Source of the DNA: an uncultured Bacillota bacterium
GTDB taxonomy: Bacteria; Bacillota_I; Bacilli_A; RF39; UBA660
Direction: 5' to 3'
Length of the DNA stretch: 37,944 nt
Assembly: GCA_900318075.1 (NCBI GenBank)
Contig: ONJI01000021.1
Coordinates: 1-37,944 of the forward strand
The position numbers and the translations under genes were made by a program. Below are positions 6,361 through 23,216 of the stretch, one piece after another. The notes under the pieces are model-generated. The model was not told the origin of the DNA and searched no databases. It was given only the letters and a program-made list of their open reading frames with translations. Position 1 is the stretch's first letter; every line of letters starts with the position of its first letter.

Positions 6361-6394
6361 AAAAAAAGAAAAAGCATTCATATTATGAATGCTT
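6361..6394 (-). terminator. Terminator after the CotE-like gene
   Basis: AAGCATTCAT (6372-6381) pairs with ATGAATGCTT (6385-6394) over a three-base loop, then TTTCTTTTTTT on the minus strand. The gene's stop codon lies in the hairpin. Confidence 0.88.
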
Positions 6395-6928
6395 AGATAA
6401 ATAATCTTCATCTACCTTTTCATCAATTTCCTTTAATGTATCTTCTAAATCATTATCGTCGACAATTTCATCCCAAGGCTCTTCATCATCTTCAACTGTT
6501 ATTTTCATTTTAGTTTCACCAACAATTTCAATGCCAAGTTCTTTTTCAATATCAAATGATATAGTATTTCCATCTAACTTAACACCTGAGCAAGTTGGCT
6601 GCTTAAGTGAACGCACAATTATATCGGTATCACCAGACAAATCAGCATTATCGCGAACTTTTACATTGAATAAATCATTATATTCAATTTTCTTATTAAT
6701 AACAGTTGTTTTACTATCGTCATCATAAGAGTACCATATATTTATATCAAATGACCCATCTACTCCTACTTTATCACCGGATTTATACCCTTTAAATTTA
6801 TGATTTATTACCCAGCACCCTAATACAGTCGTAGGATTATTATCCGCTTCTACCGTATAACTGTTCTTAAAATATTTTTTACCTTTTCCGACAATTGCCT
6901 TTGTTACTATTTCTTTAAAAGAAGCCAT
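6383..6928 (-). CDS. cotE: CotE-like outer spore coat morphogenetic protein
   Basis: 181 aa, the CotE family length. Conserved stretches recognised are EIVTKAIVGKGKKYF near the N-terminus, PTTVLGCWVINHKF, DGSFDINIWYSYD, then DIIVRSLKQPTC and KELGIEIVGETK, followed by an acidic C-terminal tail with EDDEEPWDE. In B. subtilis CotE assembles the outer coat on the mother-cell side of the spore. The ATG at 6928 has GAGGGGTGAT ahead and is chosen over an upstream start at 6943. The upstream region lacks a clear sigma-A promoter but holds a possible sigma-K-type site. It implies that the organism forms spores or descends from spore formers. Confidence 0.9.
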   Translation of the reverse strand: MASFKEIVTKAIVGKGKKYFKNSYTVEADNNPTTVLGCWVINHKFKGYKSGDKVGVDGSFDINIWYSYDDDSKTTVINKKIEYNDLFNVKVRDNADLSGDTDIIVRSLKQPTCSGVKLDGNTISFDIEKELGIEIVGETKMKITVEDDEEPWDEIVDDNDLEDTLKEIDEKVDEDYLSKHS

Positions 6929-6945
6929 TTTATCACCCCTCATTT

Positions 6946-17951: not shown

Positions 17952-19166
17952 TTACTTATTTAAATATTTATTTCCTACATATTTATCAGATAAAGATGCT
18001 TTTTTAATCGCCTTAAAGCCATATTTTTCTTTTATCTCGTCCACTGTTTTTTCCAATATCTTATTATCTTCTCTAATATCATAGTTTTCAAATAAAGATG
18101 TTTGATGATTAGAAATATCCACCAGTCCATCAAGCCTAACCCCTATTAATCTAATACCATCATCCGTATCCATCTCATCTAGTATTTCTTTAGATACTTT
18201 ATAAACCTCTTCTGTAATATTAGTTGCGTTAACTAATCTTTTTTGATGACTTTTCCTTTTGAAAAACTTATCCTTTAAAGTAACTACTACCACATACGCA
18301 TATTTTTCTTGTCTTCGAAGTCTTAAAGTAACATTTTCTGATAAAGCTAGTAAATACTGATATAATTCTTCTTTAGAAGAAATATTATGATCTAAAGTTG
18401 TCTCATTACCTATTCCCTTAGGATCAGCCGGCACAGAGTTCACAAAATCACTACCTATGCCGTTAGCTGCTCTTATCATATCTATAGCCATATTTTTAAA
18501 ATATTTATACATTTTTTTCTCATCAGCATGTGCTAAATCATAAATAGTATTTATATTTAAATTGTGAAGCTTAATAGCCGTTTTCTTACCTATGCCAAAT
18601 AAATCATCGATAGGTAATGGCCACATTTTATCTTGAACTTCATTTTTATACAAAGTATGAACCTTATAAGGTTTAGAAAAATCAGAAGCCATCTTCGCAC
18701 ATAGTTTATTATTTGCAATACCAATATTTACCGTAAAACCCAATACATCATAGATTTCTTTTTTTAGCTTATAAGCAAAATCTATTTCGTTACCATATAG
18801 ATGTCTAACTGGCGTATAATCCAAAAAGCACTCATCAATACTCATCGGTTCAATATCTGGTGTATATTTTTTAATAAGATCAAACATACTATCACTCATT
18901 TTTTTGTAATAATTATAATTTGGTGGATAAGTTCTCAAATTAGGACATTTTTTTCTAGCCGAATACAATGTCTCACCAGTAACTACACCTTTCTTTTTAG
19001 CCGGCATAGACTTAGCTAAAACAATTCCTCTTCTAGAAGCCTCATCACCACCAATAACCGCATATGACTTTCTAATATCATATTTATAACCTTCTTTAAG
19101 CATGAAAACTGCCGTCCATGATAAAAAAGCGTTATTGACATCTATATGCATTATGATCTTTTCCAT
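17952..19166 (-). CDS. dinB: Y-family DNA polymerase IV (DinB-like)
   Basis: 404 aa. The palm/fingers core starts with MHIDVNNAFLSW (Asp9 binds metal; Phe14 is at the steric-gate position) and has the second catalytic motif SIDECFLDY at 109-117. A thumb with helix-hairpin-helix (LFGIGKKTAIKL near 188) and a little-finger domain follow. The FLSW wording instead of FFASVE marks a sub-branch common in Firmicutes. It performs error-prone lesion bypass. The ATG at 19166 has AGGTGG four bases ahead; an ATG at 19184 overlaps the -10 box and would not be transcribed. A LexA-like box overlaps the promoter. Confidence 0.9.
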   Translation of the reverse strand: MEKIIMHIDVNNAFLSWTAVFMLKEGYKYDIRKSYAVIGGDEASRRGIVLAKSMPAKKKGVVTGETLYSARKKCPNLRTYPPNYNYYKKMSDSMFDLIKKYTPDIEPMSIDECFLDYTPVRHLYGNEIDFAYKLKKEIYDVLGFTVNIGIANNKLCAKMASDFSKPYKVHTLYKNEVQDKMWPLPIDDLFGIGKKTAIKLHNLNINTIYDLAHADEKKMYKYFKNMAIDMIRAANGIGSDFVNSVPADPKGIGNETTLDHNISSKEELYQYLLALSENVTLRLRRQEKYAYVVVVTLKDKFFKRKSHQKRLVNATNITEEVYKVSKEILDEMDTDDGIRLIGVRLDGLVDISNHQTSLFENYDIREDNKILEKTVDEIKEKYGFKAIKKASLSDKYVGNKYLNK

Positions 19167-19182
19167 GAAACCACCTATATCC

Positions 19183-19205
19183 ATTATAGCACGAACAACT
19201 GTTTT
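19183..19205 (-). promoter_or_regulatory. Extended -10 promoter with LexA-like box (dinB)
   Basis: On the minus strand TGCTATAAT gives an extended -10 (TATAAT at 19183-19188). Just upstream, CGAACAACTGTTTT on the plus strand (19192-19205) matches 12 of 14 positions of the B. subtilis LexA (DinR) pattern CGAACRNRYGTTYC. Control by the SOS response is inferred. Confidence 0.5.
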
Positions 19206-20830: not shown

Positions 20831-21193
20831 TTACATTGCACACTCTCTTTCTATATATTTCATAATTACTTTAACTATATAAGAAATCTCATCTTCTGTA
20901 AGCTCTCTATACATTGAAATATTATGCCATTTAAAAAGGCACCTGCGGCAGCATGTTCCTGTTGCATGCTGAGCTATAAAAACCGGATGCACTTGTCTCA
21001 TCGGTGTCTGCTTACCATCATTTTTAGGATAAGCTGGTTTTAATCTTTCATTTATAAAATCATAAGCATGCCTTTCTACTAGACATATTCCCTTATTTTT
21101 TACATATTCTTTCATCTTTGAATTTAAATGAAAACTAGATCTAAATTTTGAATGTTCTAAACTATCAAACAATTCATTTAAATTTTTATACAT
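20831..21193 (-). CDS. DUF4186 family protein
   Basis: 120 aa. It matches the DUF4186 pattern: SKFRSSFHLN near 15-24, ERHAYDFINERL, PKNDGKQTPMRQVHPVF, then AQHATGTCCRRCLFKWH near 74-90, ending ELTEDEISYIVKVIMKYIERE. The CC-x-x-C cluster with nearby His residues suggests a metal site. Function is unknown. It has its own ribosome site (AGGTGTG ahead of the ATG) and lies between an unknown gene and the ADP-ribosylglycohydrolase homologue. Confidence 0.85.
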   Translation of the reverse strand: MYKNLNELFDSLEHSKFRSSFHLNSKMKEYVKNKGICLVERHAYDFINERLKPAYPKNDGKQTPMRQVHPVFIAQHATGTCCRRCLFKWHNISMYRELTEDEISYIVKVIMKYIERECAM

Positions 21194-21223: not shown

Positions 21224-21260
21224 CAAAAAAAAGACATAACATCTATTTTGTATATGTCTT
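21224..21260 (-). terminator. Terminator after the 168-aa unknown gene
   Basis: AAGACATA (21231-21238) pairs with TATGTCTT (21253-21260), then eight T in all on the minus strand. The stop codon is in the loop. Confidence 0.8.
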
Positions 21261-21749
21261 AATTTTTGGTCTCGATATAACTAATTCTAAATTACCTTCT
21301 GCAGTTTCTTCAGTTAAATACTCAAAATTAGTTAGAAAATCTGAAAACTGCTGTAGATATCTTTGATTTCTTTCTTGTTCATAATTTCTTTTTTTAAAAG
21401 AATAAGCACCCAAAATAGCCACGGCTTTTGTGTTAGCTGAAACTAACGCTAATTTACGAATCATATTATCTGGCCTAACAAATGGCATTTGTGAATATAC
21501 CACATCAACCGGCATGTAGTTAGGATCAATTAAAATATTATCCAAAACATCCTCTGTACAAATTCTAAGAGATTTAATATGTCGCCTACCATCTTTATAT
21601 GAAAAACCGAGATAATCAGACACAGTATTAAAATTATTGTCAGTAATTTCTAAAAGTTCGTGTGTTTGCGTTTCATAACCATAATTTTCAAGAACATTTT
21701 CTAAAAACTGTGCATAATCCACTAATAGTTTTGTTTTTCTATTATACAT
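21243..21749 (-). CDS. Hypothetical protein, unknown function
   Basis: 168 aa, soluble, no signal peptide or membrane helix. The C-terminal half has a run of charged and aromatic residues (FKKRNYEQERNQRYLQQF) that may be helical. No family recognised. It has a good promoter (TTGACT-17-TAGTAT) and a GAGGGGG ribosome site, and it follows the GH25-like gene on the same strand. Confidence 0.7.
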   Translation of the reverse strand: MYNRKTKLLVDYAQFLENVLENYGYETQTHELLEITDNNFNTVSDYLGFSYKDGRRHIKSLRICTEDVLDNILIDPNYMPVDVVYSQMPFVRPDNMIRKLALVSANTKAVAILGAYSFKKRNYEQERNQRYLQQFSDFLTNFEYLTEETAEGNLELVISRPKIKTYTK

Positions 21750-21804: not shown

Positions 21805-21833
21805 ATAAAAAGTTAGGCTACTCTAGCCAAACT
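21805..21833 (-). terminator. Terminator after the GH25-like gene
   Basis: AGTTAGGCTA (21811-21820) pairs with TAGCCAAACT (21824-21833) with one mismatch, followed by TTTTTATTT on the minus strand. Confidence 0.7.
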
Positions 21834-22250
21834 TTCACCTTTAATTTCAGCATTTAATCTGTTTATAATTTCCCTATTACTAATTTTTACTATGTCATAA
21901 TCATTACCTGGATCTACAACAATCACAGAAGCATTTTTACTAACACTGTCAATATCACGCACTACTGCCATGAAAATTACTTCATATTCAGACTGCATAT
22001 TATATCTTCTATTGATATCATCAATAATTTCAGCACTTTTTAGATCCATAGATAGCATAACAATATATCCAGCTTGATTTATAGCCCTAGCAATAGCATT
22101 ATAAACATTAATAAAATCTAAAAGTTTCAAATCACTATTTCGATTTTTTTGGGCATATTCATTATCTATTGAATAAATAACTAAACCCGAAAATTTGTTA
22201 TCAAAATTATCAAGCATTTTTAAAATTCGTTTTAATTCAATAGCTCCCAT
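21813..22250 (-). CDS. GH25-like barrel protein, 3' part (in frame after a UAG)
   Basis: 145 aa if started at the ATG at 22250, but that ATG has no ribosome site. The frame is open and in phase with the gene upstream right up to its UAG at 22362-22364. The 37 codons between read as protein (ending ESFNTGAFIYGKATDDH). Together these look like the later strands of a GH25-type barrel: GAFIYGKAT (usual GvYhy), then LVIYSIDNEY at about 22-31 (usual DxE on a strand), then the YNAIARAINQAGYIVMLSMD segment (usual GykvmiYs). I therefore think this is the C-terminal half of one gene. The resemblance is by eye and no signal peptide is present. Function unknown. Confidence 0.6.
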   Translation of the reverse strand: MGAIELKRILKMLDNFDNKFSGLVIYSIDNEYAQKNRNSDLKLLDFINVYNAIARAINQAGYIVMLSMDLKSAEIIDDINRRYNMQSEYEVIFMAVVRDIDSVSKNASVIVVDPGNDYDIVKISNREIINRLNAEIKGESLARVA

Positions 22251-22361
22251 ATGATCATCAGTGGCTTTCCCATAAATAAACGCCCCAGTATTAAAACTTT
22301 CAGCTTGACATCTAGCTGCATTACTAACGAAAATATCCTCTTCCTTAGACTTGCTAGAATC

Positions 22362-23156
22362 CTAACATGTAAGCACAACAATATCAGTATTTTGTTTTTT
22401 CAAAGCACCTATATCACTACTATCCAAAATTGCTCCATCTGAAACTTTTTGAATAACTAATCTTTCATCATCCCCTGCTGTCTTACTTTCCATTTCTGCT
22501 TGAATTGCCTCTTCAATTTCTGGATTAATATTACGCTTTGCATATGAAGCAACCTGTTTAACCATACTAGTTTTTAAAGATTTTGGATTTTCTTTAGGTA
22601 AACTTACCTGATTAGCAGGATTAAGCATTACACTACTTTTTTTAACCGAAACGCCAATTTTTCTACTTTTTATAGACTCCAAAAATATAGTTTTAAGATT
22701 ATTATATGTATTTAAAATTCTTTGCAGTTCTTTAGCATATTCTGCACTTTCAGGATTAAATGTAGGCCATTTTATAACTTGTCTTTGAAACGTGCCATTT
22801 ACCTGAATAGGTATCGTCCAGCCACTATTATCTCTTTTTATAAATTTATTTTCTAAACAAGCTGCATTTAATGATCCTTCCAAGTAATCAAGACTTTTAT
22901 TATAGACATTTACCCAAGATTTAATATAGTCAATATATTCTTCTTTCCTTGGAATAGATATAATATTAAAAGAAGTACTATTTGGTACACTAACTAAAAC
23001 TTCTCTTCCACGAGTTTTTAAAAACCTTCCAGCTTTTAGCTCTGAATCTATCCATTTTATATGATCGCTAACTCTACGGAAATCATCGAAACTGTCGATT
23101 TTTTCAACATCAATTCTATTTAATAGCGTTGCCCCTTGTTTTTCTTGAACTATCAT
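22362..23156 (-). CDS. GH25-like barrel protein, 5' part, ending at an in-frame UAG
   Basis: 264 aa to the UAG at 22362. The first 170 residues have no family I recognise; Lys/Ser-rich linkers lead to GAILDSSDIGALKKQNTDIVVLTC. This resembles the first two strands of a GH25 lysozyme barrel (the D-x-S start, then a strand). The stop falls in the middle of the fold and the frame continues to 21813. The full reading would be about 447 codons. The ATG at 23156 has GGGTGATGAT ahead (a GTG at 23168 is also open). A strong promoter precedes it. No signal peptide, so the product should be cytosolic unless exported another way. It may be a nonsense-mutated gene, a read-through product or a base-call error. 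Confidence 0.6.
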   Translation of the reverse strand: MIVQEKQGATLLNRIDVEKIDSFDDFRRVSDHIKWIDSELKAGRFLKTRGREVLVSVPNSTSFNIISIPRKEEYIDYIKSWVNVYNKSLDYLEGSLNAACLENKFIKRDNSGWTIPIQVNGTFQRQVIKWPTFNPESAEYAKELQRILNTYNNLKTIFLESIKSRKIGVSVKKSSVMLNPANQVSLPKENPKSLKTSMVKQVASYAKRNINPEIEEAIQAEMESKTAGDDERLVIQKVSDGAILDSSDIGALKKQNTDIVVLTC

Positions 23157-23186
23157 ATCATCACCCACGCTTTATATCCTATATAA

Positions 23187-23216
23187 ATTATACATCTCCT
23201 TTACACCTAGTGTCAA
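23187..23216 (-). promoter_or_regulatory. Strong promoter of the GH25-like gene
   Basis: TTGACA (23211-23216), 18 bases, TATAAT (23187-23192) on the minus strand. Both hexamers are consensus. Confidence 0.75.

Follow-up and report, generated by a model that had tools for sequence, protein, structure and literature searches.

A likely nonsense mutation in a conserved gene with a GH25-fold barrel from an uncultured Bacillota bacterium

Introduction

A single UAG inside an otherwise open frame of an uncultured bacterium may mark a broken gene, a codon that is read through, or an error in the sequence. We wondered which of these applies to the gene at 21813-23156 (minus strand) of the window, that is, the whole analysed stretch of 37,944 nucleotides from an uncultured Bacillota bacterium (GTDB lineage Bacteria; Bacillota_I; Bacilli_A; RF39; UBA660; GenBank assembly GCA_900318075.1, contig ONJI01000021.1). 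A previous sequence-only reading had described the gene as GH25-like and had listed nonsense mutation, read-through and base-call error as possible causes of its interruption. Among these, nonsense mutation fits best, since the homologues are intact and UAG is a true stop.

Results

The interrupted frame

Translation of 21813-23156 revealed that the frame opens at ATG 23156, runs for 264 codons to the TAG at 22362-22364, and proceeds past it in the same minus-strand frame for 182 sense codons to the TAA at 21813. The joined frame comprises 447 positions before the TAA, the UAG position counted. At the base composition found here, 182 codons would stay open by chance with a probability of about 2e-6, and the second part contains neither a frameshift nor a second stop. 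The next ATG (22250) lies in the same frame, separated from the TAG by 37 codons. A UAG interrupting one frame, 37 sensible codons behind it and about 447 codons in total had been claimed from the sequence, and translation bears out all three. The features of the gene, all on the minus strand, are as follows.

23187-23216, minus: sigma-70 promoter TTGACA-N18-TATAAT, 12 of 12 consensus positions; hexamers and spacer length unchanged at 29 homologous loci
23160-23166, minus: GGGTGAT, ribosome-site-like, just before ATG 23156 (read directly; GGGTGAT or GGGTGGT is common before the ATG in homologues)
22362-23156, minus: first part, 264 codons up to the TAG, encoding the N-terminal domain, the linker and barrel strands 1 and 2
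22662-23114, minus: N-terminal alpha/beta domain, residues ~15-165, without family match (predicted structure, pLDDT mostly >85; no Pfam match)
22362-22364, minus: in-frame TAG at residue 265, where 20 of 29 intact homologues have Gln
21813-22361, minus: second part in the same frame, 182 codons then TAA, without a ribosome site of its own
21837-22466, minus: GH25-fold barrel, residues ~231-440, split by the TAG after the second strand
22164-22172, minus: residues 329-331, S-I-D, which occupy the position of the catalytic D-x-E in GH25 (from profile comparisons with LytC and canonical GH25 proteins and from the residue table)
21816-21828, minus: terminator-like hairpin GGCTAGAGTAGCC with a T run behind it; it overlaps the final codons

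The hairpin GGCTAGAGTAGCC is the only terminator-like hairpin of the region and sits at the end of the second part, where the sequence-only reading had placed the sole terminator. With the promoter before the first part and this hairpin at the end of the second, the two parts constitute one transcription unit. Promoter, frame and terminator of the interrupted gene are all intact.

Further, we examined the promoter. Exact TTGACA-N18-TATAAT occurs at only two sites in 384 kb of the window's genome, and its conservation before the gene suggests strong, strictly kept expression. At the level of single loci, the exact promoter was found before the gene at all 30 tabulated homologous loci (the window and L003-L031), and its spacer often contains GTGTAAA. 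The exact promoter is missing at L140-L142 and L144.

Homologues in the genus

The gene is present in 43 of 44 genomes of the genus and is interrupted only in that of the window. Whole-genome search of the genus accounts for 39 of the 44, and family profiles added four more (G018, G038, G040 and G043); the 44th genome, 62% complete, gave a weak match only. The nearest homologue, from G035, is 72% identical over its full length, and other homologues are lower. In an alignment of 30 proteins, all 29 intact homologues are continuous through the stop position and none has a stop at the UAG column. The residue found there is Gln in 20 of the 29 (17 CAA and 3 CAG codons), Leu in four and another residue in five. 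Just after the TAG, the window protein departs from the family consensus, with DSS instead of D-V-N. Homologues that end at the same place and are followed by a separate second gene, which the earlier reading had proposed to look for, were not found in the genus. Stops noted in other genus members proved to be natural terminal stops counted within the match.

Genome and genus searches detected no second copy of the gene in the window's genome, and thus no paralogue replacing the broken one. A search for another strain returned four other family members, at 50-69% identity, and no second strain.

Domains and predicted fold

The structure of the joined protein, predicted with 30 sequences (mean pLDDT 83), consists of an N-terminal domain (residues ~15-165), a disordered linker and a barrel (residues ~231-440). 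The UAG at residue 265 falls just after the second barrel strand. Prediction and structure search were run on the whole protein, and the structure matches are dominated by the barrel. Ranks 1-19 are all GH25 (Z 14.2-17.1; next fold 11.4), with about 180-200 residues aligned at an rmsd of 2.9-3.8. In a search of viral structures, phage lysozymes matched the barrel. The structural match to GH25 that the earlier reading had asked for is thus present, at Z 14-17, and it is joined by a profile match of the family to LytC (E 6.8e-10). A Pfam scan of family members listed no GH25 family, which together with the LytC match indicates a distant relation to GH25. Pfam, PHROGs and NCBIfam scans of members gave scattered weak matches only. 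As to the GH25-like barrel claimed from the sequence, the fold is thus supported by profile and predicted structure; its proposed start at DSS is not, since the barrel begins at about residue 231, before the TAG.

The N-terminal domain is predicted with confidence, is conserved across the genus and belongs to no Pfam family.

The family has the barrel fold (residues ~230-440) in common with GH25 muramidases such as LytC of Streptococcus pneumoniae (2ww5), CTP1L endolysin (5a6s) and SleM (5jip). Unlike these, it has no Pfam match, carries an added N-terminal domain and, as had been read from the sequence, shows no evident signal peptide in the joined two-domain protein. In addition, none of the 30 members compared has the catalytic Glu; Asp or Asn stands in its place. 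The position of this Glu in LytC was identified by the E versus Q difference between the sequences of 2ww5 and 2wwc, and it aligns to Asp 331 of the window protein. In the profile alignment, D-V-E-N of LytC corresponds to E/S-V-N/D-D of the family, and canonical GH25 proteins of the wider family give the same register. Asn occupies the catalytic Glu position in 25 of 30 members and Asp in the other five. D240, a candidate counterpart of the catalytic Asp that closes strand 1 in GH25, is present in 30 of 30. The D-x-E strand of the sequence-only reading turned out to be S-I-D-N-E, which is out of register with the catalytic D-x-E of GH25. Because the catalytic Glu is absent in the whole family, it probably represents a non-hydrolytic derivative of GH25, with a binding or scaffold role rather than that of a lysozyme.

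UAG in the window's genome

We wondered if UAG is used as a stop elsewhere in this genome (84.8% complete, 71 contigs). We set a 384-kb sample of it against 589 kb of G035 and aligned 159 orthologous frames, about 45,900 codons. TAG is the terminal stop in 37 of 139 sampled orthologues of the window's genome, and 30 of these 37 end in TAG in G035 too. Among the 159 frames, no other real gene has an in-frame stop; other in-frame stops occur only in short shadow frames overlapping another ORF in the other strand or frame. RF1 is present (517 bits), as is tRNA-Gln(CUG). The search for a UAG suppressor and PylS, suggested earlier, found no CUA anticodon among the tRNAs recovered from this incomplete genome, a partial set with none for Ser, Tyr or Asp, and PylS was not found. 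Wholesale reassignment of UAG, already judged unlikely from the sequence, is ruled out by RF1 and by normal use of UAG as a stop, and pyrrolysine decoding is rejected, as no PylS was found. Further codes reported from uncultivated Bacilli concern Arg codons, with AGG read as Met in a clade of the order RFN20 (PMC8629427). This code does not apply here, as AGG of the window's genome aligns to Arg in the relative.

Changes after the stop

Derived residues were polarised against three outgroups. After the TAG, the window's lineage has 18 and its sister 6; before it, the numbers are 8 and 11. By nucleotide counts the excess after the TAG is not significant (Fisher p 0.16). A branch codon model gives no raised dN/dS on the window's branch, under synonymous saturation and with one branch at bound. 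Drifting neutrally, the second part would pick up about 18.5 additional stops for each substitution per site, so drift past about 0.16 substitutions per site is unlikely. The sequence data agree with a recent mutation after which constraint was relaxed briefly, if at all.

Discussion

Taken as a whole, the comparisons argue for a single nonsense mutation that probably truncated a conserved chromosomal gene, in an allele known from one assembly. The other explanations have to be weighed against the same data. If a base-call or assembly error or a strain-mixed consensus had produced the TAG, 22362-22364 would be a sense codon in the true genome, and the gene would be intact. Intact frame, promoter and terminator would agree with this, as would the lack of measurably relaxed constraint on the second part and the origin of the contig from an incomplete assembly of 71 contigs. 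On the other side, the absence of any other in-frame stop in a real gene over ~45,900 aligned codons means that the assembly is not error-ridden, and an isolated error would not cause DSS in place of D-V-N just after the TAG. We therefore regard an error as unlikely, yet as the strongest of the rivals. The idea that the second part is a separate gene with a start of its own draws on the 145 codons that ATG 22250 opens. This ATG is preceded by no ribosome-site-like sequence at suitable spacing, in line with the earlier remark that the second part has none. It is also located mid-barrel, past the third strand, so that the product would miss three strands, and no split homologue was found among the 29 intact ones. 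Two natural genes were rejected because the homologues are unsplit, and we give this reading next to no credence.

If some fraction of ribosomes read through the UAG with a suppressor or a near-cognate Gln tRNA, short and full-length products would both arise. Gln is the commonest homologous residue, tRNA-Gln(CUG) exists, the second part carries no extra disabling mutation, and a suppressor could be missing from an assembly that yielded no tRNAs for several amino acids. In common with systems of stop-codon suppression or recoding (supE-type suppressor tRNA, pyrrolysine), the locus has an in-frame UAG at a position that is commonly Gln. It differs from them in that RF1 is present, neither a CUA tRNA nor PylS was found and UAG is a common, normal stop. 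Moreover, the site is not conserved: no relative has a stop there, so there is no conserved read-through signal. Such read-through is thus quite improbable. A partial reading of UAG as Gln in this species, by which one strong promoter would give the isolated N-terminal domain as well as the complete protein and its non-catalytic barrel, appears very doubtful; if true, one mutation would have created a switch in a lineage where UAG is otherwise a stop.

In the case of a nonsense mutation, translation would start at ATG 23156 and terminate at the UAG. The product would be 264 residues long and would retain the N-terminal domain but no more of the barrel than strands 1 and 2; a barrel so incomplete is predicted to be unable to fold, and its function would be lost. 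The mutation is presumably young or still polymorphic, because neither the promoter nor the rest of the frame nor the terminator shows damage. The gene resembles ordinary bacterial pseudogenes that carry one nonsense mutation: like them, it has a single in-frame stop set against intact orthologues, in a frame whose remainder and flanks are intact, and it has nothing distinctive among them.

As a nonsense allele the gene is thus ordinary. It points to an undescribed protein family, near-universal in one gut Bacilli-like genus and equipped with a consensus promoter, which appears to be built on a GH25 barrel without the catalytic Glu. The locus also teaches that recoding ought not to be read from one in-frame UAG of a metagenome-assembled genome until homologues have been compared.

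Genomic neighbourhood

Gene order is kept in G035 and G034 over the stretch that starts with the P-type ATPase, includes the ADP-ribosylglycohydrolase and ends with the gene at 17952-19184. G006 has the same order except for the small gene 20831-21193. The adjoining gene at 21243-21749 (minus) codes for a protein of 168 residues without Pfam match and stands beside the GH25-like gene in three relatives too. In the distant family members L140, L143 and L144, the upstream neighbour resembles SPFH/stomatin by eye, so gene order differs there. Elsewhere in the window, outer spore coat protein E (CotE) has a homologue at 6383-6943 (minus; Pfam E 1.6e-51); the genome that encodes it is reduced, at ~1.1 Mb.
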